DNA of 64,000 bases from Agrobacterium vitis (GTDB lineage Bacteria > Pseudomonadota > Alphaproteobacteria > Rhizobiales > Rhizobiaceae): NCBI RefSeq assembly GCF_037039395.1, contig NZ_CP146244.1, positions 124,001 through 188,000 on the forward strand, given 5' to 3'. Positions 41,882 to 57,388 of this stretch are shown here, piece by piece. Below the pieces are notes generated by a model. The model did no database searches. It was not told where the DNA came from and saw nothing but the letters and a program-made list of their open reading frames with translations. The first letter of the stretch is position 1. Each line of letters opens with the position of its first letter. The position numbers were made by a program, and so were the translations under genes.

Positions 41882-41898
41882 GTTGTTCCCCAGTATTC

Positions 41899-43023
41899 TT
41901 ATGCGGAAATATAGTCGCGGTGATAGCGATGACCAAGGCTGGTCAGGATTTCATAGGCAATCGTACCCGCCGCTTGCGCCACATCTTCCAAGGTCTGATG
42001 CGGCCCGATGATTTCGACCAGACTGCCGAGTGTTAATACACCAGGTGGCAGGGCGGAAATATCGACCGTCATGCTGTCCATCGACACTCGCCCGACAATC
42101 GGCAAACGGATGTCGCCATAATAAGCGGCGCCCCGGTCGCTCAAGCAACGTGGCAGGCCATCCGCATAGCCAATGGCCAGGGTGGCCAGCCTGGTTTCCT
42201 TGGTGGCCACATAGGTCGCGCCGTAGCCGACGCAGGCCCCGGCTGGCACAGTTCGTGTCTGGATGACTTTCGCATCGACCCGCACCACTGGCTTCATGCG
42301 GCGTCCTGCCAGATCGCTGGGGACTGCGCCGTAAAGGGCAACGCCGGGGCGGACCAATGCGCCGTGAAACTGCTTGTCGATAAAGATGCCGCCTGAATTG
42401 GAAAAGCACAAGGGAATGCCTGGAAATTGCGTCAGTCGCTCGCGCATGACCGAAAATTGAGCGGCATTCTGGCTGCTGGCGCTGTCATCTGCTGAGGCGA
42501 GATGGCTCATGATGAAGCGGATGGAGAGGCCGGATAACAAGGTTGGGTTACCTGCAAGCACATTGGCTTCTTCCGGTGAAAAGCCAAGCCGTGACATGCC
42601 GGTATCGAATTGAAGGATCGCGGGGAGGGTCCGTCCAAACTCGCTCGCCGTATTCGACCAATTGGCAAGCTGTTGCAGCGAATTCAACACCGGTATGAAG
42701 CCGTTTGCCGCTGCAAATGGTTCTGCGCCCGGCTGTAGGCCGTTGAGAATGAACAGTTCGGCATCCCCGGGCAAATGTTGCCTTAGCCCGGCTGCTTCCT
42801 GTACATGCGCCACGAAGAATTTCCGGCATCCAGCCCTGTAGAGGGCAGGTGCGACGCGGGCGGCCCCAAGGCCATAGGCATCGGCCTTGACGACAGCGGA
42901 GGTTTCCGCCGGGGCGGCCTCAGCGGCCAATTGACGGTAATTGTCGGCAAGCGCATCGAGATCGATCACGAGTCGGGCGGAAAACGCATCGGCATTCAGG
43001 TCGTGGCTGATAGACATATCCAT
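41899..43023 (-). CDS. dadX: Alanine racemase (catabolic, DadX-like)
   Basis: This PLP enzyme interconverts L- and D-alanine. The 374-residue protein has the PLP lysine K46 in [11 protein letters not shown], and the catalytic tyrosine at about residue 267 in [12 protein letters not shown], with [12 protein letters not shown] following. Linkage to dadA and to an Lrp/AsnC regulator marks it as the catabolic isozyme that feeds DadA, rather than the cell-wall Alr, although only context separates the two. The ATG at 43023 has a GGGG run upstream; another ATG lies two codons inside. Confidence 0.92.
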
Positions 43024-43100
43024 AACTGTACCCCGTTTTCTTTCGATGATATTGAAACATTCGCGAAATTTCCGGGCGGTTTATCGGCAGCTATTGTGCT

Positions 43101-43129
43101 TTGCGAATTTTTGCGCAATTTTCTGCGAA
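43101..43129. promoter_or_regulatory. Candidate Lrp-type binding array between alr and lrp-like gene
   Basis: Three related half-sites lie about one helical turn apart: TTGCGAA (43101-43107), TTGCGCAA (43111-43118) and CTGCGAA (43123-43129), separated by T-rich spacers. A further TTCGCGAA is at 43060-43067. The spacing and AT-rich context suit wrapped binding by an Lrp/AsnC octamer controlling both divergent genes. Confidence 0.45.
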
Positions 43130-43147
43130 GAAAACGAGGATTGTTGC

Positions 43148-43615
43148 GTGAGCGGTATCGACGCCATCGACCGGGCCATTATGCGCCAATTGCAGCTGAA
43201 TGCGCGCATCAGCAATGCCAGTCTGGCTGCGGCTGTCGGGCTCTCCGCCTCGGCCTGCCTGCGGCGGGTCGCACTCCTTGAAAAGCAGGGTTATATCAGC
43301 GGCTATACCGCCATTCTCGGCAAGTCTGACAAAGACGATGGTATTGCCGTGATCATCAACATCACTCTTGATCGGCAGACAGAGGACCATCTCAACCGCT
43401 TTGAGGCGGCGATCCGGAAATATCCGGAAATCCAGGAATGTTTCCTGATGACCGGCGGATCCGATTACCTCTTGAAACTGGAAGTCGAAAGCGCCCATGA
43501 TTTTGAGCGAATCCATAAGGAAATCCTCGCCAAACTGCCGGGCGTGGCACGCATCCATTCCAGCTTTTCCATTCGTAATGTGCTGAAAACCCGCCATACC
43601 AAGCCGAAATCGTGA
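43148..43615 (+). CDS. Lrp/AsnC-family regulator of D-alanine catabolism (DadR-like)
   Basis: A 155-residue regulator with an N-terminal helix-turn-helix (about residues 3-60, DAIDRAIMRQLQLNARISNA and LAAAVGLSASACLRRVALLE) and a C-terminal RAM ligand-binding domain (about 70-145, including ECFLMTGGSDYLLKLEV). I take the GTG at 43148 as start: a GAGGA site lies nine bases upstream and the product begins right at the conserved IDAIDR segment; the frame remains open further upstream. It is divergent from alr-dadA, the arrangement of DadR/BkdR-type activators, so it probably responds to alanine. Confidence 0.9.
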   Translation: MSGIDAIDRAIMRQLQLNARISNASLAAAVGLSASACLRRVALLEKQGYISGYTAILGKSDKDDGIAVIINITLDRQTEDHLNRFEAAIRKYPEIQECFLMTGGSDYLLKLEVESAHDFERIHKEILAKLPGVARIHSSFSIRNVLKTRHTKPKS

Positions 43616-43630
43616 GGATTTCATTCCTGC

Positions 43631-43664
43631 TTGTCATTTTGGCTTTTGGTAGACCATAATACGG
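43631..43664 (+). promoter_or_regulatory. Promoter and probable GntR operator upstream of the GntR gene
   Basis: TTGTCA (43631-43636) and CATAAT (43655-43660), 18 bases apart, form a sigma-70-like promoter. The -10 lies inside TTGGTAGACCATAATACGG (43646-43664), which shares TTGG and the 10-base core ACCATAATAC with an element upstream of the next operon (44485-44504). This suggests autoregulation. Confidence 0.6.
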
Positions 43665-43731: not shown

Positions 43732-44424
43732 ATGACAGAGACCATAAAGGTGGAACGCCCCACCAAGACGCTCAGGGAACTGGCGCTTGAAAAAGTCCGT
43801 GATGCGATCATCAGTGGCTATTTCAAGCCGGGTGACCGGCTGGTCGAGCGTGATCTTTGCGCACAGCTCGGGGTTAGCCGAACCGTTGTGCGGGAAGTGC
43901 TGCGGCATCTGGAGTCTGAGGGTCTGGTCAGCAATCCCCAAAGCAAGGGGCCGATGGTGGCACTGCTGGATGTCGATGAAGCCCGGCAGATCTATGAAAT
44001 CCGTGCGGCTTTGGAAGGCATGGCGGCACGGCTTTGCGCGGAGCGGGACGATCCGGCTATTGTGGTTGGCTTGTCAGAGGCGCTGGACGCCATCAAGGAC
44101 GCCTATGCCCGCCAGGACATGGCTGATGTCTTGAAGGAAACGACGCGATTTTACGAGACGCTGTTTACCCGGATCGACAGGCAGATCGCCTGGGGTGTTG
44201 TGCGGCAAATGACCGTGCGCATCAATCATCTGCGCTCGATGACCATCAAGACCGGTGGTCGGTCGACGGAGGGGCCAGCCCAGATGCAACGGATTGTCGA
44301 GGCGATCCGTAATGGCGATGGACCGGCCGCCGAGCAGGCGGCAATCGATCACGTGCAGCGTGCCTCTTCCATTGCCGTCGCTGTGCTTGCGCAGCAGGCC
44401 CGATCCGCCGTTGAGACTGAATAA
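43732..44424 (+). CDS. GntR-family regulator, FCD (FadR) subfamily
   Basis: A 230-residue regulator with an N-terminal GntR winged helix (about residues 14-75: LALEKVRDAIISGYFKPGDR, then LCAQLGVSRTVVREVLRHLE). The helical FCD effector domain (about 85-215) has D80 and a YEIRAALEGMAARLCAE segment typical of the fold. FCD regulators usually bind a carboxylic acid linked to the pathway they control. It lies 101 bases upstream of the catabolic operon and shares a promoter-overlapping DNA element with it, so it is probably the local repressor. The ligand is unknown. Confidence 0.93.
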   Translation: MTETIKVERPTKTLRELALEKVRDAIISGYFKPGDRLVERDLCAQLGVSRTVVREVLRHLESEGLVSNPQSKGPMVALLDVDEARQIYEIRAALEGMAARLCAERDDPAIVVGLSEALDAIKDAYARQDMADVLKETTRFYETLFTRIDRQIAWGVVRQMTVRINHLRSMTIKTGGRSTEGPAQMQRIVEAIRNGDGPAAEQAAIDHVQRASSIAVAVLAQQARSAVETE

Positions 44425-44468
44425 ATATATTCCCTAAAAGAAAAATTAATTCCTGTTCGACAAGTCGC

Positions 44469-44504
44469 TTGACTCTGAAATAGCTTGGCATACCATAATA
44501 CCAA
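44469..44504 (+). promoter_or_regulatory. Promoter and probable GntR operator of the catabolic operon
   Basis: TTGACT (44469-44474) and CATAAT (44494-44499) form a promoter with a rather long 19-base spacer. The -10 overlaps TTGGCATACCATAATACCAA (44485-44504), an inverted repeat whose arms TTGGCAT and ATACCAA differ at one position. It matches the element in front of the GntR gene over TTGG and the core ACCATAATAC. Confidence 0.65.
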
Positions 44505-44525
44505 CAGTGACATCAGAGGTAAGCC

Positions 44526-45128
44526 ATGGCCCTGCAAATCCGCAAAACTCTTCTGCATGTGGAAACCACCCTGGTGGAAGGAGGCAAGGCTGCGCCCAAG
44601 CCGCTGAAACTCTATGCAGCTTTTGCCGTCGTCAAAAATCCCTGGGCCGGACGCGGCTTTGTTGAGGATCTGAAGCCGGAAATCCATCAATGCGCCCCGG
44701 TTCTCGGGGAGCTTCTGACCGGTATGATCCTAGAGGCCGTTGGCTCCGGCGAGGCGGTCGAAGCCTATGGCAAGGTTGCCGTTGTCGGCCTAGATGGCGA
44801 GATTGAACACGCCTCGGCGTTGATCCATACGTTGCGGTTCGGCAACCATTACCGCACGGCGGTGGGGGCAAAATCCTATCTCGCCTTCTGCAACACGCGC
44901 GGTCCGGCCAATGCCCCAATCATGATCCCGTTGATGGACAAGAATGATGAAGGCCGCCGTTCCCATTACCTGACGATCCAGACGGCCATTGCCGATGCGC
45001 CAGCGGCCGACGAAATTGTCGTCGGGCTCGGTGCATCTGTCGGCGGAAGGCCCCATCACCGGATTGGCGACCGCTATCAGGATCTGAAAGATCTAGGCCA
45101 GGATGTTGCCAACCCGGCGGGCGTATAA
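44526..45128 (+). CDS. DUF1185 / 'amino acid synthesis' family protein (PF06684)
   Basis: A 200-residue protein of the PF06684 family. Recognisable blocks are YAAFAVVKNPWAGRGFVEDL (residues 30-49), AYGKVAVVGLDGEIEHASALIH, and the C-terminal VVGLGASVGGRPHHRIGDRY. Published structures of family members show a variant of the Bacillus chorismate mutase fold, and a role in amino-acid metabolism was proposed, but no reaction is firmly established to my knowledge. It is the first gene of the GntR-controlled operon, with an AGAGGT ribosome site, and is followed by hydrolase and monooxygenase genes. This suggests catalysis on an intermediate of that pathway. Confidence 0.88.
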   Translation: MALQIRKTLLHVETTLVEGGKAAPKPLKLYAAFAVVKNPWAGRGFVEDLKPEIHQCAPVLGELLTGMILEAVGSGEAVEAYGKVAVVGLDGEIEHASALIHTLRFGNHYRTAVGAKSYLAFCNTRGPANAPIMIPLMDKNDEGRRSHYLTIQTAIADAPAADEIVVGLGASVGGRPHHRIGDRYQDLKDLGQDVANPAGV

Positions 45129-45143
45129 AGCGGGGGCGGCGAG

Positions 45144-45980
45144 ATGGAGATGGCAGCAATGCGTGGCAAGGCCCCATCGCCATTTCCGGTGGTCGAGCGC
45201 CAGATTACCCCTGATGGAACCGCTTATGTGGAGCAAGGTAGCGGTGAGCCGCTGGTGCTGGTTCATGGCGTTGGCATGCGGCTCGAAGCATGGTGGCCGC
45301 AAATGGCAAGCCTTTCCGCCAGCCACCGCGTCATAGCGGTCGATATGCCAGGCCATGGCCAGAGCCTCGCCTTGCCGAAAGGCAGTGAACTGCCGGATTT
45401 CGTGGCTTGGCTTGGCCGGTTTCTGGAGGAAATCAATCTTGGACCGGTCAATCTGGCCGGTCATTCGATGGGCGCGTTGATTGCAGGCGGTGCCGTCGCC
45501 AGCTTTCCGCAGAAAATCCGGCGGGTGGCTCTGGTGAATGGCGTCTACCGGCGTGATGTGTCGGCCAAGGCGGCGGTTCTTGCGCGGGCAGAGTCGATTG
45601 CCGCCGACGGCATTGATGTTGAAGGGCCGTTGAAGCGCTGGTTCGACAGCGACGCCGTAAGCCTTGCCGCTCGCGCTCTGACCGAGCAATGCCTGCGGCA
45701 AATGAATGCCGATGCCTATGCCACCGCTTACCATGCCTTTGCCAATGGGGATGAAACCTACGCCGACTGCTGGCCGCAGGTTTCCTGTCCCGCCCTGTTC
45801 CTGACGGGTGCCGGTGATCCGAACTCAACGGCTGAAATGGCTGAGGCCATGGCGGGGCAGGCGCAACAGGGTATTGCCAGGATCGTTCCCGGCCATCGCC
45901 ACATGGTCAATCTCACGGCACCGCAAGAGGTGCATGACATCATGGCCGCGTGGTTGGCGTTACCGGAGGCACATCGATGA
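45144..45980 (+). CDS. Alpha/beta-fold hydrolase
   Basis: A 278-residue hydrolase of the alpha/beta fold. The oxyanion-hole motif is LVLVHGVGM (residues 37-45), the nucleophile elbow GHSMG puts the serine at residue 108, the acid is D225 in TGAGDPNS, and the histidine is H253 (or H251) in PGHRHMVNL. A lid of helices fills about 135-205. Family members cleave esters, amides, enol-lactones or C-C bonds. In this operon it probably hydrolyses the product of the flavin monooxygenase, but the bond is unknown. ATG codons at 45150 and 45159 are alternative starts. Confidence 0.9.
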   Translation: MEMAAMRGKAPSPFPVVERQITPDGTAYVEQGSGEPLVLVHGVGMRLEAWWPQMASLSASHRVIAVDMPGHGQSLALPKGSELPDFVAWLGRFLEEINLGPVNLAGHSMGALIAGGAVASFPQKIRRVALVNGVYRRDVSAKAAVLARAESIAADGIDVEGPLKRWFDSDAVSLAARALTEQCLRQMNADAYATAYHAFANGDETYADCWPQVSCPALFLTGAGDPNSTAEMAEAMAGQAQQGIARIVPGHRHMVNLTAPQEVHDIMAAWLALPEAHR

Positions 45981-46011
45981 GTGCCGATAAAACCAACAGT
46001 GAGGCGCGCGG

Positions 46012-46932
46012 ATGAGCGAAGCGATAATCGATCCCCGCAGTCTGCGCGATGCTTTCGGCGCTTTCGCCACCGGCGTCACCGTTGTCACCACGCTTGGACC
46101 TGACGGTTCTCCCATCGGCTTTACCGCCAATTCTTTCACGTCGGTCTCGCTCGATCCGCCTTTGCTGATGGTCTGTCTGGCCAAAACCTCGCGCAATTTT
46201 GAGACGATGACCAAGGCCGTTGGCTTTGCCGTCAATATATTGTCGGACGGGCAGAAGGACGTGTCCAACACCTTCGCCCGGCCGGTCGAAGACCGGTTTG
46301 CAACTGTGGACTGGCAGCTTGGACCCCATGGGTCGCCGGTATTTTCCGGTACGTCTGCCTGGTTCGATTGCAGCCTTGAGACTGTCATTGAGGCTGGTGA
46401 TCATGTGGTGCTGCTGGGGCGGGTACAGGCATTCGACAAAAGCGAATTGAACGGGCTTGGCTATGTGCGTGGTGGTTATTTCACGCCAGCCCTTGCCGAA
46501 AAAGCTGTCAGCGCCGCCAGCGATGGCCCGCTGCATCTGAGCGCTGTTATCGAGCGTGATGGCGAGGTGCTTCTGGTGGGAGAAGATGGCCGCAGCCTGC
46601 CGGGTTGTCATGCGGTCAGCGGTGAGCCTTTGCAGGATTTGAAAGCCCATCTCGAACAGTTGACCGGGCTAGGGATCACCATCGGGTTTCTCTATTCCGT
46701 CTATGAGGACAAGGGCGAGGGATGCCAGCATATCGTTTACCGGGCCTTTGCCGGTTCCGGCACGCCGAAATGCGGCAGTTTCATCCCGGTTGACCGGCTG
46801 GCCGGTCCGGGCGGCTCGGCCACGGCGGATATTCTCAACCGGTTCGCGGCGGAAAGCTCGCTGGGCAATTTCGGCGTCTATGTTGGCAACGAGACGGCAG
46901 GCCGGGTTCACTCCATCGCCAGGAAGGCTTGA
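46012..46932 (+). CDS. Flavin reductase with a C-terminal Nudix-like extension
   Basis: The first 165 of 306 residues are a flavin reductase domain of the HpaC/FRP type: LRDAFGAFATGVTVVTTLGP, GFTANSFTSVSLDPPLLMV and the NTFARP segment. It would supply reduced flavin to the luciferase-like enzyme encoded next. The last 135 residues are unusual: from about 173, LHLSAVIERDGEVLLVGEDG then LKAHLEQLTGLGITIGFLYS look like the strands and helix of a Nudix fold, but the catalytic Nudix box REXXEE is not conserved. This part may bind rather than hydrolyse a nucleotide. It sits three bases before the monooxygenase gene. Confidence 0.88.
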   Translation: MSEAIIDPRSLRDAFGAFATGVTVVTTLGPDGSPIGFTANSFTSVSLDPPLLMVCLAKTSRNFETMTKAVGFAVNILSDGQKDVSNTFARPVEDRFATVDWQLGPHGSPVFSGTSAWFDCSLETVIEAGDHVVLLGRVQAFDKSELNGLGYVRGGYFTPALAEKAVSAASDGPLHLSAVIERDGEVLLVGEDGRSLPGCHAVSGEPLQDLKAHLEQLTGLGITIGFLYSVYEDKGEGCQHIVYRAFAGSGTPKCGSFIPVDRLAGPGGSATADILNRFAAESSLGNFGVYVGNETAGRVHSIARKA

Positions 46933-46935
46933 TCC

Positions 46936-47973
46936 ATGAAGTTCTCTCTCTTCGTCCATATGGAACGGCTCGATGCCAGCCAGAGCCATAAAAGCCTCTA
47001 TGAGGAATTTCTGCACCTGTGCGAGATCGCTGATAAGGGCGGTATGCATGCGATCTGGACCGGCGAACACCACGGTATGGATTTCACCATTGCGCCCAAC
47101 CCGTTCGTAACCATTGCCGATTTGGCCAACCGGGTGAAAAACGTTCGCCTTGGAACGGGAACGGTGATTGCGCCCTTCTGGCACCCGATCAAGCTGGCGG
47201 GTGAGGCGGCGATGACCGACCTGATCACCGATGGCCGGCTGGATATCGGCATCGCCCGGGGTGCCTATTCCTTTGAATATGAGCGGTTGATGCCGGGTCT
47301 GGATGCCTGGACCGCTGGTCAGCGGATGCGCGAACTGATCCCAGCCATTAAAGGCGTCTGGGCTGGCGACTATGCCCATCAGGGCGAATTCTGGTCCTTC
47401 CCGGCCACCACCTCGGCGCCAAAACCGTTGCAGGAACCGATCCCGCTCTGGGTGGCGGCGCGTGATCCCAATTCCCATGATTTTGCCGTGGCCAATGGCT
47501 GCAACGTGCAGGTGACGCCGCTTTGGAATGGCGACGGCGAAATCGAAACCCTGATGCAGCGATTCAATGCCGCCTGCGAGAAGTCTCCCGATCTGCCGCG
47601 CCCGAAAATCATGCTGCTTCTGCATAGCTATGTCGGCTCCAGCGAGGCCGATATTGCCCAGGCAGCCAGGGAATTGAGCACCTATTACAATTACTTCTTC
47701 GCGTGGTTCAAAAACGAGCGTCCAATCCATCAGGGCCTGATCGAACGGTTGAGCCAGGAGGATATCGACGCCAACGCCATGCTGGCGCCCGAGGTAATGC
47801 GGGCCAATATGGCAGTTGGTACAGCGGATGACGTGATCGCCCGACTGAAACGCTACGAGGCGCTGGGATATGATGAGTTTTCCTTCTGGATCGACACCGG
47901 CATGAGCTTCGAGCGCAAGAAAGCCTCGCTGGAACGATTCATTGCCGATGTCATGCCAGCCTTTGCGGAGTAA
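46936..47973 (+). CDS. Luciferase-like (LLM-class) flavin-dependent monooxygenase
   Basis: A 345-residue bacterial-luciferase-like enzyme. It starts MKFSLFVHMERLDASQSHKS and has AIWTGEHHGMDFTIAPNPFV (residues 39-58), LGTGTVIAPFWHPIKLAGEA and GRLDIGIARGAYSFEYERL. These are typical family blocks for binding reduced FMN and oxygen. Enzymes of this group insert oxygen or open rings in many substrates. The flavin reductase gene directly upstream makes a two-component system; the ALDH downstream fits an aldehyde product. The substrate is unknown. Confidence 0.92.
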   Translation: MKFSLFVHMERLDASQSHKSLYEEFLHLCEIADKGGMHAIWTGEHHGMDFTIAPNPFVTIADLANRVKNVRLGTGTVIAPFWHPIKLAGEAAMTDLITDGRLDIGIARGAYSFEYERLMPGLDAWTAGQRMRELIPAIKGVWAGDYAHQGEFWSFPATTSAPKPLQEPIPLWVAARDPNSHDFAVANGCNVQVTPLWNGDGEIETLMQRFNAACEKSPDLPRPKIMLLLHSYVGSSEADIAQAARELSTYYNYFFAWFKNERPIHQGLIERLSQEDIDANAMLAPEVMRANMAVGTADDVIARLKRYEALGYDEFSFWIDTGMSFERKKASLERFIADVMPAFAE

Positions 47974-47977
47974 AGCG

Positions 47978-49441
47978 ATGCAGCATTTTCAGCTTTACAT
48001 CGATGGTACCTTCAGTGACGGCGAGGCGCGGTTTGAAAGCCTCGATCCGGCCACTGGCGAGGTCTGGGCGGATATGCCGGAAGCGCGTGAATCGGATGTG
48101 AACCGCGCTGTCGAGGCCGCCCATACCGCGCTCTATGACGGGCCATGGGCAAAAATGACTGCCACCCAGCGTGGCAAGCTGATCTACCGACTGGCCGACC
48201 TGATTGCCGCCAATGCGCCAAGGCTGGCAGAGCTGGAAACCCGCGATACCGGCAAGATCATCCGCGAGACAAGCTCGCAAATTGCCTATGTCGCCGATTA
48301 CTATCGCTATTATGCGGGGCTCGCCGACAAGATCGAAGGCTCGACCCTTCCGATTGACAAGCCGGATATGGATGTCTGGCTGCGCCGCGAGCCGGTCGGC
48401 GTGGTGGCTATGGTTATTCCGTGGAACAGCCAATTGTTTCTCTCCGCGGTCAAGATCGGCCCGGCGCTGGCCGCTGGCTGCACAATGGTGGTGAAAGCCT
48501 CGGAAGATGGTCCGGCCCCGATGCTGGAATTTGCCCGGCTGGTGCATGAGGCCGGGTTCCCGCCCGGTGTCATCAATATCATTACCGGATTTGGCCCGTC
48601 CTGTGGTGCAGCGCTCACCCGCCATCCCAGGGTTGCTCATGTGGCCTTCACCGGCGGGCCGGAGGCGGCGAGGCATGTCGTGCGCAATTCGGCAGAAAAT
48701 CTGGCCTCGACCTCGCTGGAATTGGGCGGCAAGTCGCCGTTCATCGTCTTTGCCGACGCGGATCTGGAAAGTGCTGCCAATGCACAGGTCTCCGGCATTT
48801 TTGCCGCCACTGGCCAGTCCTGTGTTGCCGGATCACGGTTGATTGTCGAGCGCTCGGTAAAGGATGCGTTTCTAGCCCGGTTGAAGACCAAGGCCGAAGC
48901 AATCCGCATCGGCAGTCCGCTGGATATGGCAACAGAGGTCGGACCACTCGCCACCCGTCGCCAGCAGGATCATGTCGATGCGCTGGTCAATGCCTCACTT
49001 GCGGCAGGCGCCCGACTGGTGACGGGAGGGCAGCGCCCGGATGGTCCGGGTAATTTCTATCCGCCGACCATTCTCGATTGCGATGACGTTAATTCGCCAT
49101 CCATGGCGCAGGAGTTTTTCGGACCTGTCCTGTCTGTGGTGTCTTTTGAGAGTGAGGCGCAAGCGCTGCATCTGGCCAATGATACGGCCTATGGCTTGGC
49201 GTCAGGCGTGTTTACCCAAAACCTGGCACGCGCGCATCGGATGATACGCGGGCTTCGCGCTGGCGTCGTCTGGGTCAATACCTACCGCGCCGTTTCGCCG
49301 ATTGCACCGTTTGGCGGCTTTGGCCTGTCCGGCCATGGGCGGGAAGGTGGCATGGCCGCGGTGCTGGATTATACCCGCACCAAGACGGTCTGGCTGAAAA
49401 CCTCAGACGACCCGTTTCCCGATCCGTTCGTGATGCGGTGA
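47978..49441 (+). CDS. NAD(P)+-dependent aldehyde dehydrogenase
   Basis: A 487-residue aldehyde dehydrogenase with the catalytic asparagine N150 in VIPWNSQL, the general base E248 in SLELGGKSPF and the nucleophile C282 in GQSCVAGSRL. The start at 47978 is four bases after the stop of the monooxygenase gene; the frame stays open upstream into that gene, but MQHFQLYIDGTFSDG is the natural family start. Its position suggests it oxidises an aldehyde released by the monooxygenase or hydrolase. Specificity cannot be read from sequence. Confidence 0.93.
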   Translation: MQHFQLYIDGTFSDGEARFESLDPATGEVWADMPEARESDVNRAVEAAHTALYDGPWAKMTATQRGKLIYRLADLIAANAPRLAELETRDTGKIIRETSSQIAYVADYYRYYAGLADKIEGSTLPIDKPDMDVWLRREPVGVVAMVIPWNSQLFLSAVKIGPALAAGCTMVVKASEDGPAPMLEFARLVHEAGFPPGVINIITGFGPSCGAALTRHPRVAHVAFTGGPEAARHVVRNSAENLASTSLELGGKSPFIVFADADLESAANAQVSGIFAATGQSCVAGSRLIVERSVKDAFLARLKTKAEAIRIGSPLDMATEVGPLATRRQQDHVDALVNASLAAGARLVTGGQRPDGPGNFYPPTILDCDDVNSPSMAQEFFGPVLSVVSFESEAQALHLANDTAYGLASGVFTQNLARAHRMIRGLRAGVVWVNTYRAVSPIAPFGGFGLSGHGREGGMAAVLDYTRTKTVWLKTSDDPFPDPFVMR

Positions 49442-49452
49442 TAAGCACATGC

Positions 49453-49491
49453 CCCGGATGGATGGCCCAAAAGAAGCAACCGGCATCCGGG
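49453..49491 (+). promoter_or_regulatory. Stem-loop in the gap before the importer genes
   Basis: CCCGGATG (49453-49460) and CATCCGGG (49484-49491) form a perfect 8-base stem with a 23-base loop in the 80-base gap between the aldehyde dehydrogenase and the solute-binding protein. No T-run follows. It may tune mRNA stability across the two halves of the operon. Confidence 0.4.
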
Positions 49492-49521
49492 TAAGGCACA
49501 ATCAAACAAGGACAAGGGAAC

Positions 49522-50532
49522 ATGAAAAACACAACCATTCTCGCATCGCTGGCTTTGCTCTTGGGCGTCTCCGGTCAGGCCTTGGCTGCCGATCTGGTGT
49601 TCACCAGTTGGGGCGGCACCACGCAGGACGTGCAGAAATCCGCCTGGGCGGATAAATTCACGGCAAAAGAAGGCATCAACGTCCTTCAGGACGGCCCGAC
49701 CGATTACGGCAAGATCAAAGCCATGGTCGAGGCCAAGGGCGTGAGTTGGGACGTCGTGGATGTCGAAGGCGATTATGCCATTCAGGCAGGCGACAAGGGC
49801 CTGCTGGAAAAGCTCGACTTCAAAACCATCGACAAGACAACGCTCGATCCGCGTTTTGTGACGGATTATTCGGTCGGTAGCTTTTATTATTCCTTCGTGG
49901 TCGGCTGCAACAAGGACGCTGTCGCCGCTTGCCCGAAAAGCTGGACGGAGCTGTTCGACACTAAGAAATTTCCCGGCAAGCGCACTTTCTACAAGTGGTC
50001 GGCGCCAGGCGTGATCGAAGCCGCGCTGCTGGCGGATGGCGTGGCGCCGGATAAGCTTTATCCCCTTGATCTCGACCGCGCGTTCAAGAAACTCGACACC
50101 ATCAAATCCGACATTATCTGGTGGTCGGGCGGTGCGCAGTCGCAGCAATTGCTGGCCTCTGCTGAAGCCCCGTTCGGCTCCTTCTGGAATGGCCGGTTGA
50201 CGGCGCTGGCGGCAACCGGCGTCACGGTCGAAACCTCCTGGGCGCAGAACATCACCGCAGCCGATGCGCTGGTCGTGCCGAAGGGCACCAAGAACAAGGA
50301 AGCGGCGATGAAGTTCATCGCTTTCGCAACCTCGCCCGCTGGCCAGGCCGAAATGGCGGCAGGGACTGGCTACGCGCCTGTGAATACCAAGTCACCGGCG
50401 CTGATGGACCCCGCCATCGCCAAGACCTTGCCAGACCAGCAGACCGCGTCGCAGGTCAATGCCGACATGGCCTATTGGGCCAAGCACCGTGACGAGATTG
50501 GCGAGCGTTGGTACGCTTGGCAGTCGAAGTAA
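49522..50532 (+). CDS. ABC importer solute-binding protein, PotD-like
   Basis: A 336-residue periplasmic binding protein with a clear Sec signal peptide (MKNTTILASLALLLGVSGQA, cleavage expected after ALA near residue 22). The mature protein begins with ADLVFTSWGGTTQD, and SPAGQAEMAAGTGYAPVNTK lies near the end; both are typical of the spermidine/putrescine (PotD) class, whose members bind polyamines, amino acids or other small cations. Four genes in PotD-B-C-A order follow the catabolic genes, so the ligand is likely the pathway substrate. The ligand is not determined by sequence. Confidence 0.9.
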   Translation: MKNTTILASLALLLGVSGQALAADLVFTSWGGTTQDVQKSAWADKFTAKEGINVLQDGPTDYGKIKAMVEAKGVSWDVVDVEGDYAIQAGDKGLLEKLDFKTIDKTTLDPRFVTDYSVGSFYYSFVVGCNKDAVAACPKSWTELFDTKKFPGKRTFYKWSAPGVIEAALLADGVAPDKLYPLDLDRAFKKLDTIKSDIIWWSGGAQSQQLLASAEAPFGSFWNGRLTALAATGVTVETSWAQNITAADALVVPKGTKNKEAAMKFIAFATSPAGQAEMAAGTGYAPVNTKSPALMDPAIAKTLPDQQTASQVNADMAYWAKHRDEIGERWYAWQSK

Positions 50533-50556
50533 GGCTTGCAGTTAAGATAAGGCATT

Positions 50557-50585
50557 TCCGGCACCGTAAACCATCCGGTGCCGGA
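50557..50585 (+). promoter_or_regulatory. Stem-loop after the solute-binding protein gene
   Basis: A perfect 10-base stem (TCCGGCACCG / CGGTGCCGGA) with a 9-base loop begins 25 bases after the binding-protein stop and precedes the permease genes. Such intercistronic hairpins commonly protect the binding-protein message so that it outnumbers the permease. No T-run follows. Confidence 0.6.
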
Positions 50586-50656
50586 GCGTCCTCAGCGTTA
50601 CGGCATGATGCATCCTTCAAATGCTAAGTGCCGGACGGGTTTGGCAAGGAAACGGC

Positions 50657-51523
50657 ATGGCGTCCCCGACCTCGACCATTGAACAGCCCCATAGAAGCCG
50701 GTGGGGTTTCGGCAATAAAGCCGCGACCCTGCCGGCGCTGGTGTTGATCCTGATTTTCTTCGTCCTGCCGGTTCTGGCCCTGCTGACGCGCTCGGTGACC
50801 GAGCCGGTTCTCGGGCTCGGCAATTACGCCGCATTGCTGGGAAGCGCGACCTATCTGAAGATCTTCTTCAACACGTTTTTCGTCTCGGCCCTGGTCACGG
50901 CAATTTCGCTATTGATTGGCTTTCCCGTCGCCTGGGCGCTGGCGATCATGCCGCAACGATTGGCCTCCGTGATCTTTGCGATCGTCTTGCTGTCGATGTG
51001 GACCAACCTTCTCGCCCGCACCTATGCCTGGATGGTGCTGTTACAGCGCACCGGGGTCATCAACAAGACACTGATCAGTCTCGGTGTGGTCGATACACCG
51101 CTGGTGATGGTCAACAACCTTGTCGGCGTGACGGTTGGTATGAGCTACATCATGCTGCCCTTCATCATCATTCCGCTCTATGGGGTGATCCGCAAGATCG
51201 ATCCGGCACTGTTGCAGGCGGCAGCACTTTGCGGCGCGACGCGCTGGCAGGCGCTGGTCACAGTTCTGCTGCCGCTTGCCATGCCGGGCATGGTGTCGGG
51301 TGGATTGATGGTGTTCGTCATGTCACTTGGTTATTTCGTCACACCGTCGCTGCTTGGCGGCACATCCAATATGATGCTGGCCGAGTTGATCGCCCAATTC
51401 GTGCAATCGCTGGTCAATTGGGGCATGGGCGGAGCGGCGGCGCTGGTGCTGCTGGTGGTGACGCTAAGCCTCTATGCTGTGCAATTGAAGCTGTTCGGTG
51501 CAGCCGGTGAGGGAGGGCGCTGA
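50657..51523 (+). CDS. ABC importer permease, PotB-like
   Basis: A 288-residue integral membrane permease with about six helices. The EAA-type loop for the ATPase partner is visible as LLQAAALCGATRWQALVTVLLPLAMPGM (roughly residues 195-220). It is the first of two permeases of a PotABCD-type importer. The ATG at 50657 has an AAGGA site; an in-frame ATG at 50621 lies 12 codons upstream without one. It starts 124 bases after the binding-protein gene. Confidence 0.92.
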   Translation: MASPTSTIEQPHRSRWGFGNKAATLPALVLILIFFVLPVLALLTRSVTEPVLGLGNYAALLGSATYLKIFFNTFFVSALVTAISLLIGFPVAWALAIMPQRLASVIFAIVLLSMWTNLLARTYAWMVLLQRTGVINKTLISLGVVDTPLVMVNNLVGVTVGMSYIMLPFIIIPLYGVIRKIDPALLQAAALCGATRWQALVTVLLPLAMPGMVSGGLMVFVMSLGYFVTPSLLGGTSNMMLAELIAQFVQSLVNWGMGGAAALVLLVVTLSLYAVQLKLFGAAGEGGR

Positions 51524-51524
51524 C

Positions 51525-52325
51525 ATGCTTTTGAATTTCAACAGCCTCGGTGTCTGGAAATGGATTTTGCTGGTCATCACGCTGCTGACGGCAGCTTTTC
51601 TCCTGCTGCCGATCCTGTTTATCGCCGCCCTGTCCTTCGGCTCCTCGCAATGGCTGATTTTTCCGCCACCGGCCTGGACCACCAAATGGTATGGCCAGCT
51701 GTTTGCCGATCCGCGCTGGCTGGATGCGGCCTGGACCAGTTTTCGCATCGCCGTCATCGTCACGATCCTGTCGGTGCTGATAGGGCTTTGTGCGTCGTTC
51801 GGCCTAGTGCGTGGGCGGTTTCTCGGGCGGAATGCGCTGCGAGCTCTGTTCATGACGCCGATGATCCTGCCCGTCGTGGTGCTGGCCGTGGCGCTCTATG
51901 CGTTTTTCCTGCGCATCGGGTTGAACGGCACGACACTCGGCTTCGTCATCGCTCATCTGGTTGTCGCGCTTCCGTTCTCTATTCTGGCGCTGACCAATGC
52001 GCTGGAAGGTTTTGACAAATCCATCGAGGATGCCGCCGTGCTCTGCGGCGCTCCGCCGCTAAAGGCGCGGTTGTTGATCACGCTGCCCTGCATTGGCCAT
52101 GGTTTGTTTTCGGCGGCGGTGTTTTCCTTCCTGACCTCCTGGGATGAGGTCGTTCTGGCGATCTTCATGGCAAGCCCGACGCTTCAAACCCTGCCGGTGA
52201 AGATCTGGGCAACGCTGCGTCAGGATCTGACGCCGGTGATTGCCGCAGCCTCCACCCTTCTCATTGTCGTCACCATCGCGTTGATGCTGATCACCGCCCT
52301 GGTGCGCAAAGGACTGAAAGCATGA
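51525..52325 (+). CDS. ABC importer permease, PotC-like
   Basis: A 266-residue partner permease with about six membrane helices. Its EAA-type loop is FDKSIEDAAVLCGAPPLKAR (about residues 162-181), followed by LLITLPCIGHGLFSAAVFSF. The gene begins one base after the upstream permease stop, with a GGGAGG site within the end of that gene, and overlaps the ATPase gene by four bases. The pair would make the membrane channel of the importer. Confidence 0.92.
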   Translation: MLLNFNSLGVWKWILLVITLLTAAFLLLPILFIAALSFGSSQWLIFPPPAWTTKWYGQLFADPRWLDAAWTSFRIAVIVTILSVLIGLCASFGLVRGRFLGRNALRALFMTPMILPVVVLAVALYAFFLRIGLNGTTLGFVIAHLVVALPFSILALTNALEGFDKSIEDAAVLCGAPPLKARLLITLPCIGHGLFSAAVFSFLTSWDEVVLAIFMASPTLQTLPVKIWATLRQDLTPVIAAASTLLIVVTIALMLITALVRKGLKA

Positions 52326-53398
52326 CGCCTTTTCTGGAAATTCGCGGTATCCGCAAGCAATATGGCCCGGTGGTCGCGGTGCAGGATGTCAATCTCGAGG
52401 TGGCAAAGGGCGAGTTCATGACCTTTCTCGGTCCTTCCGGGTCGGGGAAAAGCACGACGCTTTATATACTCGCGGGTTTCGAGCAGCCGAGTGCGGGCGA
52501 TATGCTGCTATCCGGCAAGAGCGTGTTGCAGACCCCGTCGCACCAGCGCAATATCGGCATGGTGTTTCAGCGCTACACGCTGTTTCCGCATTTATCGGTC
52601 GGCCAGAACATCGCCTTTCCGCTGAAAATGCGCGGCTGGTCGAAGGCCGATATCACCGAGCGGGTCCGCAAGATGCTGCAATTGGTGCGGCTGGATGGCT
52701 ATGAGGATCGCAAACCGGCGCAAATGTCCGGTGGTCAGCAGCAGCGCGTCGCACTAGCCCGGGCGCTGGCCTATAATCCGCCGGTGCTTTTGATGGACGA
52801 GCCGCTTTCGGCGCTGGACAAGAAGCTGCGAGAGGAAATCCAGCATGAAATCCGCCGTATCCATCACCAAACGGATGTCACCATCCTTTACGTCACCCAT
52901 GATCAGGAAGAGGCATTGCGGCTTTCCGACCGGATTGCAGTATTTTCCAAAGGGGTGATCGACCAGATCGGCACTGGCGCCGAGCTTTATGCCAACCCGG
53001 CCACACGGTTTGTGGCGGAGTTTATCGGAGACAGTGATTTTCTTCCCTGTGTGGTGACTGATACCAGGGAGGGTAAGGCTGAAATCCGCCTTGGCAGTGA
53101 TTTGGCAATCGGAAATATTCCGCTGCATGGGAAAGTGCAGAATGGAAGCAATGCCATGCTGATGCTGCGCCCGGAGCGGTTGACGCTGCTTTCGGCTCAA
53201 GGACCGGGAATGCTTGCTGGCAAGATTGAGGACATTACGTTTCTGGGAAATACGATTCACATCGCGGTCTTGAGTGAAGGTGGCCATGGCCTATCCGTGC
53301 GATTGCCTTTTGGCCATGCCGCACTGGATGGACTGACGATTGGTGCGCCGGTTGCGCTGGGGTTCGATCCGGCGTCAGCGCATGTTTTCGCAGAATAG
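52322..53398 (+). CDS. ABC importer ATP-binding subunit, PotA-like
   Basis: A 358-residue ATPase. Walker A is GPSGSGKSTTLY (about residues 39-50), the signature MSGGQQQRVALARAL (about 138-152) and Walker B VLLMDEPLSALDK follow, and YVTHDQEEALRLSD supplies the switch histidine. A C-terminal TOBE-type region (about 275-355) marks the CUT1/Pot class. It ends the importer operon; the next gene has its own promoter-like element. Confidence 0.95.
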   Translation: MTPFLEIRGIRKQYGPVVAVQDVNLEVAKGEFMTFLGPSGSGKSTTLYILAGFEQPSAGDMLLSGKSVLQTPSHQRNIGMVFQRYTLFPHLSVGQNIAFPLKMRGWSKADITERVRKMLQLVRLDGYEDRKPAQMSGGQQQRVALARALAYNPPVLLMDEPLSALDKKLREEIQHEIRRIHHQTDVTILYVTHDQEEALRLSDRIAVFSKGVIDQIGTGAELYANPATRFVAEFIGDSDFLPCVVTDTREGKAEIRLGSDLAIGNIPLHGKVQNGSNAMLMLRPERLTLLSAQGPGMLAGKIEDITFLGNTIHIAVLSEGGHGLSVRLPFGHAALDGLTIGAPVALGFDPASAHVFAE

Positions 53399-53425
53399 CG
53401 CTTTGCGAAAACCGCTTCCTGAAAA

Positions 53426-53434
53426 TGCTATAAT
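53426..53434 (+). promoter_or_regulatory. Extended -10 promoter before the dehydrogenase at 53558
   Basis: TGCTATAAT is a perfect extended -10 element (TGnTATAAT); no good -35 is at the proper distance, which such promoters tolerate. It lies 123 bases before the start codon and 27 bases after the importer ATPase stop, suggesting independent transcription of the following gene. Confidence 0.45.
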
Positions 53435-53557
53435 CTACAACTTTTACGATCTTGATTAGGATCAACGGCCAGAGCCGCCCTTAGCGATAGCATTGCCGCA
53501 TCGACGCGACCGATGTCGGTAATGCGCGCCGCAGCAATGACTGCAAAGGACGGTTCC

Positions 53558-54949
53558 ATGGCTTACGCAACAACCAATCCCTATACGGGCGAAACTCTCA
53601 TAACCTTTCCCGAAGCAACCGACGCTGCCGTTCAGGCGGCCATCACGGCGGCGGATATTGCATTTCAGCAATGGCGACAGACATCCTTTGCCGAGCGGGC
53701 CAAGGTCATGCATGCAGCCGCCGAAATCCTGCGGGTACAGACGGATGATTATGCCAAGCTTCTGACCCTGGAAATGGGCAAGCTGATGTCTGAAGCGCGG
53801 GCCGAGGTGGGCCTGTCTGCCGACATCCTCGATTACTATGCCGTCAATGCCGAGCGCCTGTTGAAGCCGGAACAGCTTCCCGTTGCCGACAAGGCTGAAG
53901 GTGAGGCGATCCTGGTGCATGAGCCGCTGGGCGTGCTGCTGGCCATCGAGCCCTGGAATTTCCCCTATTACCAGATCGCCCGGATTATCGCGCCGCAGCT
54001 TTCGGCCGGTAATACCATGCTGTTGAAGCATGCGTCGAATGTGCCGCAATGCGCAGCCGCATTCGAGCGGTTGATGCTGGAGGCCGGACTGCCAAAGGGT
54101 GCCTTCACCAATCTTTATGCGACGCGGACCCAGGTGGAAATGATCCTCAACGATCCGCGCGTCCACGGTGTCGCCTTGACCGGTTCGGAAGGGGCGGGTG
54201 CTACCATTGCCGCACAGGCGGGGCAGGCGCTGAAAAAATCCACTATGGAACTGGGAGGCGCCGATGCCTTCGTGGTTCTGGCCGATGCGGATCTGGAGAA
54301 GACCGTGAAATGGGCGGTCTTCGGTCGCCACTGGAATGGCGGTCAGGTCTGCGTCTCGTCCAAGCGGATGATTATCGTTGATGCGGTCTATGATGCTTTT
54401 CTGGAGCAATACAAAACCGGTGTCGCTGGGCTGAAAGCCGGTGATCCATTCGATCCGCAAACAACGCTTGCGCCGCTGTCCTCGCAAGGGGCTGCCGACG
54501 AGATCCGTCAAAAGATTGCAGAAGCGGTGTCCCATGGGGCAACGGCAACCGAAGTCGGGCCGCCGGTGCCAAACCAGGGCGCTTTCGTGCAGCCAACCAT
54601 CCTGACCGATCTGGCCGATGACAATCCGGCCCGTTACTGGGAGTTTTTCGGCCCGGTCTCCATGCTGTTTCGCGCCAAGGATGACGATGACGCGATCCGC
54701 ATCGCCAATGATACGCCTTATGGTCTGGGTGGCTCGATCTTTACGCGGGACACTGCGCGTGGTGTCGCTCTTGCCCACCGGATCACCACAGGCATGGTGT
54801 TCATCAACCACCCGACCATGGTCAAGGCGGACTTGCCGTTCGGTGGCGTCAAGCGCTCGGGCTATGGCCGCGAATTGCTGGGCCTCGGCATCAAGGAATT
54901 CGTCAATCACAAGCTGATCGATGTCGTTGATATCGATGCGCCGTTCTGA
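53558..54949 (+). CDS. Aldehyde dehydrogenase, succinate-semialdehyde dehydrogenase type
   Basis: A 463-residue NAD(P)+-dependent dehydrogenase of the short succinate-semialdehyde group (Sad/GabD2-like). It has N134 in IEPWNFPYYQ, the base E231 in TMELGGADAF and the nucleophile C265 in GGQVCVSSKR. The ATG at 53558 follows AAAGGA; 15 in-frame codons upstream have no ribosome site. It may complete the pathway of the preceding operon by oxidising a small semialdehyde to succinate or similar, or it may serve the neighbouring fucose-type operon as an aldehyde oxidase. The sequence does not decide between these. Confidence 0.88.
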   Translation: MAYATTNPYTGETLITFPEATDAAVQAAITAADIAFQQWRQTSFAERAKVMHAAAEILRVQTDDYAKLLTLEMGKLMSEARAEVGLSADILDYYAVNAERLLKPEQLPVADKAEGEAILVHEPLGVLLAIEPWNFPYYQIARIIAPQLSAGNTMLLKHASNVPQCAAAFERLMLEAGLPKGAFTNLYATRTQVEMILNDPRVHGVALTGSEGAGATIAAQAGQALKKSTMELGGADAFVVLADADLEKTVKWAVFGRHWNGGQVCVSSKRMIIVDAVYDAFLEQYKTGVAGLKAGDPFDPQTTLAPLSSQGAADEIRQKIAEAVSHGATATEVGPPVPNQGAFVQPTILTDLADDNPARYWEFFGPVSMLFRAKDDDDAIRIANDTPYGLGGSIFTRDTARGVALAHRITTGMVFINHPTMVKADLPFGGVKRSGYGRELLGLGIKEFVNHKLIDVVDIDAPF

Positions 54950-55050: not shown

Positions 55051-55875
55051 TCAGACACCGTAAAAACGGCGCGCATTGGTCTCGAAAATCAGCGTGAGAT
55101 CATCAGGGCCGAAATGGGCTGACAACAAGGTGCGGGCCAGATTGGCAACTTCGCCATAGCTGGCGGCCAGCGTGCAAACCGGCCAATCGCTGCCAAACAT
55201 CAGCCGATTGGGACCGAAACAGTTGATAACATGGTTCACATAGGGCCGGAAATCTTCAAGCGCCCAATCCGTATTGGCTTCTGTGACCATGCCGGAAACC
55301 TTGCAGCAGACCTGGTTGAAACCGGCGATTTCCGTCATATGCTCGCGCCAGGGGTCAAGTGTGCCCTTGGCAATCTCCGGCTTGGAAATATGATCGACCA
55401 CGGCCTTCAGATCCGGCACCTGTTTCAATGCCGCGATCACATGCGGTAAATGGCGTGGGAAGGTCAGAATATCGAAAGGCAGGCCGCTGTCGGCTATTGT
55501 TTTAAGGCTGTCGATCACCTTCGGGCGCAGGATATAGGCGTCATCGGCCAAGCTTTGCAGCATCGGACGGATGCCGATGAAATCAGGATTGGCGCGGTAG
55601 TGTTTCAGGCGCGTGGCAAAATCATCGGCCTCCAGATCGAGCCAGCCGACAACACCTGCAACGAAGTCAGTCTTTGCCGCAATTGTCAGCAGGAAATCGG
55701 TCTCTGCCTGGGTTTCCGCCGCCTGGACCAGAATGGTCCGGGTTATTCCGGCCCGGCGCATGTCTGGTTCCAGATCCTTTGGCAGGAAATTGCGGTAAAT
55801 CGCGCCGAGATCAGGCGTCAGCCAGCCGTAATCGCCACGCTCAACTTTCCAGAAATGTTGATGACTGTCGAGCAT
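55051..55875 (-). CDS. Amidohydrolase-2 family lactonase (L-fuconolactonase-like)
   Basis: A 274-residue metal-type hydrolase. The N-terminal MLDSHQHFWKVERGDYGWL carries the HxH metal motif (H5, H7), and LMFGSDWPVCTL near residue 233 supplies the conserved aspartate. This is the layout of sugar lactonases of the amidohydrolase-2 family such as L-fuconolactonase and L-rhamnonolactonase. Next to a FucU mutarotase and an aldo/keto reductase it most likely opens L-fucono-lactone to L-fuconate. It is the last gene of the minus-strand operon. Confidence 0.85.
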   Translation of the reverse strand: MLDSHQHFWKVERGDYGWLTPDLGAIYRNFLPKDLEPDMRRAGITRTILVQAAETQAETDFLLTIAAKTDFVAGVVGWLDLEADDFATRLKHYRANPDFIGIRPMLQSLADDAYILRPKVIDSLKTIADSGLPFDILTFPRHLPHVIAALKQVPDLKAVVDHISKPEIAKGTLDPWREHMTEIAGFNQVCCKVSGMVTEANTDWALEDFRPYVNHVINCFGPNRLMFGSDWPVCTLAASYGEVANLARTLLSAHFGPDDLTLIFETNARRFYGV

Positions 55876-55895
55876 CTGAAACTTTCCACTCTGGC

Positions 55896-56321
55896 TTATG
55901 CGGGACGAACTACGCCCTTTTTCAGGATGATATTGCCGTACAGCCGACGCTCGCCGGTTGAGACCACCGCAAAGGCGGCTTTGGACCGGTCGTAGAAAGC
56001 GAAACGGTCGATGAGATCCAGTTCGATTTTGCGATTTTCGGCGCGTTCAATCAGTGTTTCGAACTCGGCATAGATGGCAGGCCGCTCGCCTGGGGCGTCC
56101 ATGACACCGGCTGGATATTCGACAAAATCATCGAGCGGCATCAGTGAGAGAATGGCCTCTACCACAGCGCAGGCATCGATGCCGGGCATCTGCACCAGAC
56201 GTTCGGCGGTCGTGACCGCTGGGAAATTGGCGTCGGCGATAACGATTTCATCGCCGTGGCCCATATCGGCGAGGATAGCGAGAAGATCGCCGGTCAAAAG
56301 CGGGTTGATGGTTTTCAGCAT
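55896..56321 (-). CDS. fucU: FucU, L-fucose mutarotase
   Basis: FucU interconverts the alpha and beta anomers of L-fucose so the dehydrogenase receives the right form. The 141-residue protein of the RbsD/FucU family starts MLKTINPLLTGDLLAILADM, then GHGDEIVIADANFP, where H22 and D30 correspond to the conserved active-site positions. The C-terminus has RRLYGNIILKKGVV. It lies between the aldo/keto reductase and lactonase genes. RbsD-like (ribose pyranase) specificity is less likely, given the neighbours. Confidence 0.88.
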   Translation of the reverse strand: MLKTINPLLTGDLLAILADMGHGDEIVIADANFPAVTTAERLVQMPGIDACAVVEAILSLMPLDDFVEYPAGVMDAPGERPAIYAEFETLIERAENRKIELDLIDRFAFYDRSKAAFAVVSTGERRLYGNIILKKGVVRPA

Positions 56322-56340
56322 GGTCGTCCTCCAGGAAATG

Positions 56341-57372: not shown

Positions 57373-57388
57373 ATTATTTCCCTTGGCT

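Follow-up and report, generated by a model that had tools for sequence, protein, structure and literature searches.

A probable trigonelline catabolic operon with a GABA-type importer in Agrobacterium vitis

Genes of the locus

The stretch of DNA analysed here (the window) comprises 64,000 nucleotides of Agrobacterium vitis (contig NZ_CP146244.1, positions 124,001 to 188,000) and carries at 43732–54949 a locus of eleven genes, all on the + strand. By homology to a cluster known from Acinetobacter, the locus is very probably a trigonelline (N-methylnicotinate) catabolic operon (tgn). This kind of pathway is already known, and the locus is read as a further example of it.

The first gene, gntR (43732–44424), encodes an FCD-type GntR regulator. 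It is followed by genes for a DUF1185 (AA_synth) protein (44526–45128; PF06684 score 224 bits, cut-off 27), an α/β hydrolase (ABH, 45144–45980), a flavin reductase (FR, with a Flavin_Reduct domain, 46012–46932), a luciferase-like flavin monooxygenase (LLM, Bac_luciferase, 46936–47973) and an aldehyde dehydrogenase (ALDH, Aldedh, 47978–49441), the counterparts of TgnF, TgnD, TgnA, TgnB and TgnC, respectively. An ATP-binding cassette (ABC) importer of four genes comes next: a periplasmic binding protein of the Atu4243 type (SBP_bac_8, 49522–50532), a permease (BPD_transp_1, 50657–51523) whose start is the ATG at 50657, an internal Met of the translation, a second permease (BPD_transp_1, 51525–52325) and an ATP-binding protein (ABC_tran with TOBE_2, 52322–53398). 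The last gene (53513–54949) encodes an Aldedh protein resembling succinic-semialdehyde dehydrogenase (SSADH) and takes the place of tgnE. After the 101 bp behind gntR the enzyme genes nearly abut (gaps of 15, 31, 3 and 4 bp, the 3-bp gap placing the TgnA-type reductase gene directly upstream of the LLM gene); the gene for the binding protein is set off by larger gaps, 80 bp before it and ∼124 bp after it, the spacing among the permease and ATPase genes is 1 bp and then −4 bp, the latter an overlap, and 114 bp precede the last dehydrogenase gene. The whole genome has one DUF1185 match and one LLM match (E ≤ 1e-60).

An earlier note, made from this DNA alone, had listed the GntR, DUF1185 and hydrolase genes, the flavin monooxygenase pair, the dehydrogenases and the importer. 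All are present where it placed them, with the domains it gave, and the number of aldehyde dehydrogenases, which it left at one or two, is two.

Gene order in other genomes

Gene neighbourhoods were compared among the best 80 genome loci by LLM similarity (78% or more), out of at least 583 relatives. At 79 of them the genes run in the order DUF1185, ABH, FR, LLM, ALDH, and at 78 this row leads on to the ABC importer; the loci that depart from the pattern, L044 and L086, are short contigs; the grouping of the genes into one locus, also made in the earlier note, is thus far beyond chance. The window LLM is 98% identical to that of strains CG78 and CG118, in keeping with the closeness of the genome to A. 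vitis. Of the 80 loci, 68 have a recognised NIPSNAP gene, which lies between dehydrogenase and binding protein in three annotated copies; at this position the window has 80 bp only and no NIPSNAP gene. The terminal SSADH is of the window type in three loci, of the Rhizobium johnstonii type, which is also that of Acinetobacter sp. PK01 (57%), in 23, and of neither type (at least 45% identity, within the stretch read) in 54.

Among the named copies of the operon are those on pRL10 of R. johnstonii (leguminosarum) 3841 (L087), p42c of R. etli, pRL10 of another R. leguminosarum and pSymA of Sinorhizobium meliloti ABS7. The copy of 3841, which we take to be gts (pRL100242–252), has the same order, with identities to the window of 69% for GntR, 88% for DUF1185, 63% for ABH, 65% for FR, 82% for LLM, 84% for ALDH and 79% for the binding protein. 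It differs from the window, which is without the NIPSNAP gene and whose SSADH is non-orthologous (36%). Its DUF1185 gene would be pRL100242, termed an ‘amino acid synthesis family protein’ (PMC7105596) and counted among the R. leguminosarum genes required for root attachment and colonisation (PMC11406972).

Beside some tgn operons, genes are annotated as purU, folD and sarcosine-oxidase-like or glutamate-synthase-like (L174:1-373, L034:2453-8745, L177:1-1226). Such neighbours would fit the removal of the formate and methylamine that the pathway is expected to release.

Correspondence with the Acinetobacter tgn cluster

A search of plasmid records with the window LLM found a plasmid of Acinetobacter sp. 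PK01, in which a gene 70% identical is annotated as tgnB, the oxygenase component of flavin-dependent trigonelline monooxygenase. It sits between tgnA and tgnC, downstream of genes for a DUF1185 protein and an α/β hydrolase, with an SSADH gene a few genes on. These five genes recur in the window in unchanged order, at identities to PK01 of 73% (DUF1185), 57% (ABH), 43% over 309 columns (FR), 70% (LLM) and 70% (ALDH). The PK01 record names tgnA, tgnB and tgnC only; the labels TgnD, TgnE and TgnF for its other genes are assigned here. Both the Acinetobacter cluster and the window also have a GntR regulator (44% identity with PK01) with a recognisable common operator, and an SSADH nearby; gntR is co-directional with the operon in the window, whereas it is divergent in Acinetobacter. 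The tgn cluster was reportedly described by Perchat in 2018 from A. baylyi ADP1, and is said to be conserved across marine, soil and plant-associated bacteria.

A tree of 24 LLM rows gives the same picture. Twenty-two rows, comprising the window, rhizobia, Leisingera, Pantoea, Paraburkholderia, Mesorhizobium, others and four Acinetobacter proteins named trigonelline monooxygenase, are split with 100/100 support from two paralogs, so that the window LLM groups with TgnB. Among the matches listed, the JGI name ‘flavin-dependent trigonelline monooxygenase’ stands on six of 120 homologs of the window LLM, many others having generic names. The chemistry of the operon is proposed by transfer from the Acinetobacter pathway, on the grounds of homology.

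The two paralogs belong to clusters that parallel tgn, with its five kinds of enzyme encoded in a different order, on pAt of Agrobacterium fabrum (L039:4466-10255) and pSR3 of Aminobacter sp. SR38 (L040:2496-8035). Their LLMs are 40–44% identical to that of the window, and neither cluster has the tgn operator described below. The pAt cluster adjoins proX-type betaine transporter genes and the Aminobacter cluster lies near genes for an enoyl-CoA hydratase and a 3-hydroxyacyl-CoA dehydrogenase; either cluster may be the pathway for some other betaine or N-containing ring.

That the module has diversified in this way, with the same gene kinds in other settings, is what would favour a different substrate for the window as well, namely another N-alkylated pyridine acid or related betaine (e.g. 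homarine) handled by the same chemistry. We consider this quite improbable, since the window LLM groups with TgnB while the paralogs stand apart and without the operator. In addition, action of TgnAB on homarine is described as unlikely for steric reasons and Ruegeria pomeroyi as growing more poorly on homarine than on trigonelline (PMC8269262, for which a correction concerning contamination of a homarine standard has been published).

The earlier note had thought of a pathway like the Arthrobacter pyridine route, to which a Rut-like pyrimidine pathway may be added, the enzyme classes being similar (LLM, flavin reductase, hydrolase and semialdehyde dehydrogenase). For Rut, the scores against the equivalog models lie far under their cut-offs (RutF, 95.4 bits against 254.75; RutD, 40.2 against 238.5), and for Arthrobacter the likeness is one of enzyme classes only; we give this alternative next to no credence. 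The outline in that note, import and oxidation of a small N-containing ring compound by way of a two-component flavin monooxygenase, is borne out, and the word ‘uncharacterised’ that it used for the system no longer applies, the enzyme set corresponding to the trigonelline pathway known from Acinetobacter.

Several points weigh against assignment to tgn. Where the window has an ABC importer, Acinetobacter and Pantoea have a cytosine-permease-like transporter. The window flavin reductase is only 43% identical to PK01 TgnA, and the last dehydrogenase is no orthologue of TgnE, with 31% identity to the Acinetobacter and 36% to the 3841 enzyme; we treat this SSADH-like protein as a putative functional replacement of TgnE. 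The two outside rows of the LLM tree (∼40% identical) have long branches and their placement is flagged unsure. The comparison with tgn was made through PK01 and through database names in place of the A. baylyi ADP1 sequences, the window's own operator upstream of the DUF1185 gene is weak (four mismatches, see below), and for this organism the support comes from sequence. The substrate may be a close analogue of trigonelline.

Operator and regulation

A 16-bp palindrome, with the consensus TTATGGTATACCATAA, occurs with zero mismatches in front of two operons, that of PK01 and that of R. johnstonii 3841. The best match in the 300 bp upstream of the DUF1185 gene was taken for each of 90 chosen loci, dropping L086, which is cut before that gene. 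Up to four mismatches were found in 86 of the 89 upstream regions, and up to three in 80; control 300-bp stretches inside the same loci gave two of 89 with four mismatches and none with fewer. The consensus was derived from the same locus set, which is dominated by relatives, so that agreement across Alpha-, Beta- and Gammaproteobacteria outweighs the count. The three failing regions are those of the two paralog clusters (seven and eight mismatches) and one other locus (six). A plasmid locus of Aquabacterium (L177) has no site with three or fewer mismatches despite a complete five-gene core.

Two operator-like palindromes lie in the window. The one upstream of the operon, GCTTGGCATACCATAA (44483–44498), with the core TGGCATACCATAA, is that with four mismatches; the one upstream of gntR (43644–43659) has two and lies inside a promoter-like stretch (43631–43660). 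The better copy before gntR suggests autoregulation. Both palindromes overlap promoter-like hexamers, which are about as frequent as chance; the promoter and terminator scans gave numbers near chance (6 against 4.6 and 15 against 13.1, respectively). GntR probably represses the operon and its own gene at these palindromes until substrate or an intermediate is present.

A wider regulon was considered and rejected: with a 14-mer and up to two mismatches the window's own genome gave 22 sites, against 15 for a reversed control, and the only site with one mismatch lies before the operon.

The importer

The earlier note had called the importer PotABCD-like. A four-gene ABC importer it is, but the polyamine type falls away: the PotD model gives 60.7 bits where its cut-off is 582, and the type to which the binding protein belongs, that of Atu4243, is associated with γ-aminobutyric acid (GABA). 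Identity to Atu4243 (PDB 4EQ7) is 83.7% over 313 residues and to Pf622 63.1% over 274. Pf622 is the binding domain of the iGABASnFR sensors, for which eight GABA-contacting side chains are listed (PMC12999171). All eight counterparts are kept in the window (W30, T34, F121, Y123, W222, R225, D248 and Y284); at the Y123 position the aligned Pf622 chain has F, and Atu4243 and iGABASnFR2 have Y. The contact pattern is identical in 84 of 85 aligned binding proteins from the window and the loci, the exception being that of the Aminobacter paralog cluster, 33% identical overall.

Atu4243 (PDB 4EQ7/4EUO) is described as GABA-specific (PMC6829864), whereas its homologue in the window is tied to a trigonelline operon. 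The corresponding operon of A. tumefaciens UMA610 (L073) has a binding protein 94.6% identical to Atu4243, and therefore proteins of the Atu4243 type are those of the tgn operon. Among the papers listed, none links gts or Atu4243 with trigonelline; the terms were never searched together, and so we do not claim that the link is unpublished.

Binding protein and LLM occur together. The LLM occurs in 26 of 63 genomes of the genus, and exactly these 26 carry the binding protein at 77% or more (E ≤ 1e-60); two further genomes have binding-protein matches at 37–41% and no LLM. In 394 genomes of the family (taken as Rhizobiaceae), drawn evenly from a larger group, with E ≤ 1e-100 and at most five candidates scored per genome, 56 were found to have the LLM. 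Of these, 48 have the binding protein too, each pair on the same contig and 2.5–3.7 kb apart. No binding protein was found in any of the 338 family genomes without LLM. Family genomes are related, so that a formal probability is not meaningful, yet the asymmetry is clear.

The eight genomes with LLM only have DUF1185, reductase, LLM and dehydrogenase genes together in every case and a recognised hydrolase in seven. A GntR neighbour was recognised in three, and a LysR-like regulator, in one case confirmed by Pfam, lies beside the DUF1185 gene in four. Six proteins scanned from six of these eight loci included no obvious replacement transporter. Because all 48 genomes with the binding protein have the LLM while eight with the LLM are without the binding protein, the transporter follows the enzymes and not the reverse. 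We infer from this co-occurrence that the ‘GABA transporter’ serves trigonelline catabolism. The importer may import trigonelline itself, and among the binding-protein contacts the aromatic residues (W30, F121, Y123, W222 and Y284) would suit a pyridinium betaine.

The data can also be read the other way, with GABA import coming first and the enzymes acting on some other precursor that gives GABA or succinic semialdehyde, trigonelline not being the natural substrate. The close identity to Atu4243 (84%) with all eight contacts intact favours such a reading, as does the work of White in 2009, in which GtsABCD of R. leguminosarum alone reportedly gives fast GABA uptake. Further cases that speak against a strict tie of importer and LLM come from six plasmid loci, chosen from 60 listed of 231 binding-protein records and including L177; the LLM is whole in three, in pieces in two and absent from one. 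The two with pieces (Rhizobium plasmids L174 and L178) have LLM matches in two pieces and each transporter gene whole in one, although sequencing errors are possible. The one without (L176, plasmid p1 of Caballeronia sp. Lep1P3) has importer, hydrolase, reductase, operator and SSADH, and no LLM, DUF1185 or TgnC-type dehydrogenase gene within 7 kb either side of the binding-protein gene; it may be a reduced form of the operon with GABA as the only substrate. Against GABA as the primary substrate stand the 338 family genomes with neither LLM nor binding protein, the eight with LLM only, and the enzymes, which match TgnA–D by homology. We judge that reading unlikely, and retain trigonelline as the very probable substrate.

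Pathway and the DUF1185 protein

In the proposed pathway the ABC importer would bring the substrate in, and the flavin reductase would supply reduced flavin to the LLM, which would open the pyridinium ring. The first aldehyde dehydrogenase would oxidise the resulting hydroxy-lactone and the α/β hydrolase would split the product into methylamine, formate, CO2 and succinic semialdehyde, from which the last dehydrogenase would make succinate, the DUF1185 protein helping. For Acinetobacter, the work of Perchat reportedly has the C5–C6 bond cleaved, with oxidation to a methylene-succinate and hydrolysis to CO2, methylamine, formate and succinic semialdehyde; the same pathway presumably holds in the present organism. 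TgnC is annotated in the PK01 record as dehydrogenase of (Z)-2-((N-methylformamido)methylene)-5-hydroxybutyrolactone, and ring opening is ascribed to TgnAB (PMC8269262).

The DUF1185 protein had been listed as having no assigned reaction. Its counterpart TgnF has a reported role, stimulating the TgnE-dependent oxidation of succinic semialdehyde (PMC7913881), while its reaction itself is still undefined; HcdD, the DUF1185 protein studied by the authors of that paper, gave no such stimulation in the coumarin step that they tested. A structure paper on another member, BB2672, singles out Glu90, Glu92, His93, His98, His144, Arg172, His174 and Arg176 (PMC2954203), and this His/Glu/Arg set is kept in all 87 DUF1185 proteins of tgn clusters, that of the window included. 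A DUF1185 gene was recognised at 79 of the 80 genome loci, the remaining one being cut, and in all eight LLM-only clusters. Such constancy points to a genuine step in the pathway or to a helper that it needs.

Succinic semialdehyde can cyclise. Because trigonelline degradation passes through a cyclic hydroxy-lactone as well, our guess would be that DUF1185 speeds the ring opening of lactols such as hydroxy-lactone intermediates.

At ten loci with DUF1185 genes of low identity (32–39%) no single chemistry emerged among the neighbours, 14 proteins from eight of them having been scanned. Eight of these 14 had a Pfam match (a periplasmic binding protein, a hydantoinase, a ketoacid oxidoreductase, a 3-hydroxyisobutyrate-dehydrogenase-type protein, an amidohydrolase, an FAD monooxygenase, a LysR regulator and a pilus protein) and six had none. 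Low-identity DUF1185 genes occur at L165, as a tandem pair, and at L168, L169 and L171, beside genes for a hydantoinase/oxoprolinase, a ketoacid:ferredoxin oxidoreductase, a 3-hydroxyisobutyrate-dehydrogenase-type protein, or an amidohydrolase and an FAD monooxygenase.

Flanking genes

Upstream in the window (40616–43615) lie genes for a DAO-family dehydrogenase, an alanine racemase and a divergent Lrp/AsnC regulator, resembling a D-alanine catabolic set unrelated to the operon. Downstream, on the − strand (55051–58396), genes for an Amidohydro_2 protein, an RbsD/FucU mutarotase, an aldo/keto reductase and a BPD_transp_2 permease resemble a deoxysugar (fucose-type) catabolic cluster.

Discussion

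The operon family extends to the symbiosis plasmids of rhizobia. On pSymA of S. meliloti ABS7 the same operon lies between noeB, which is followed by IS21 genes, and nifT, and is the single place matching the LLM there (E ≤ 1e-5); several other S. meliloti records list two. Wild-type S. meliloti grows on 10 mM trigonelline, and a strain from which pSymA has been deleted fails to do so (PMC4207669). From this pSymA-dependent growth and the single LLM place in ABS7, the tgn operon is the obvious candidate for the rhizobial trigonelline genes.

A broader proposal, which we put forward tentatively and hold to be slightly more doubtful than not, is that the Gts/Atu4243 ‘GABA transporter’, as found in rhizobia and agrobacteria, serves first of all to import trigonelline, with GABA as a second ligand that feeds into the same route at succinic semialdehyde. 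The copies on pSymA and pRL10 would then be the rhizobial trigonelline (trc) genes, and DUF1185 might bring succinic semialdehyde and related intermediates from their cyclic hydroxy-lactone form into an open one on which the dehydrogenase can act.

An operon that had passed as uncharacterised becomes a named pathway with a testable substrate, for an operon family found also on symbiosis plasmids of model rhizobia, and the metabolic setting of one DUF1185 branch is fixed. What most deserves further attention is the transporter, as its GABA-type binding protein was never found apart from trigonelline monooxygenase in the 394 family genomes. Trigonelline, ending in succinic semialdehyde, would answer the ‘more complex precursor to GABA’ that White reportedly left open. 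Should trigonelline be carried by the importer, a plant alkaloid would join GABA as a ligand of this well-known binder.

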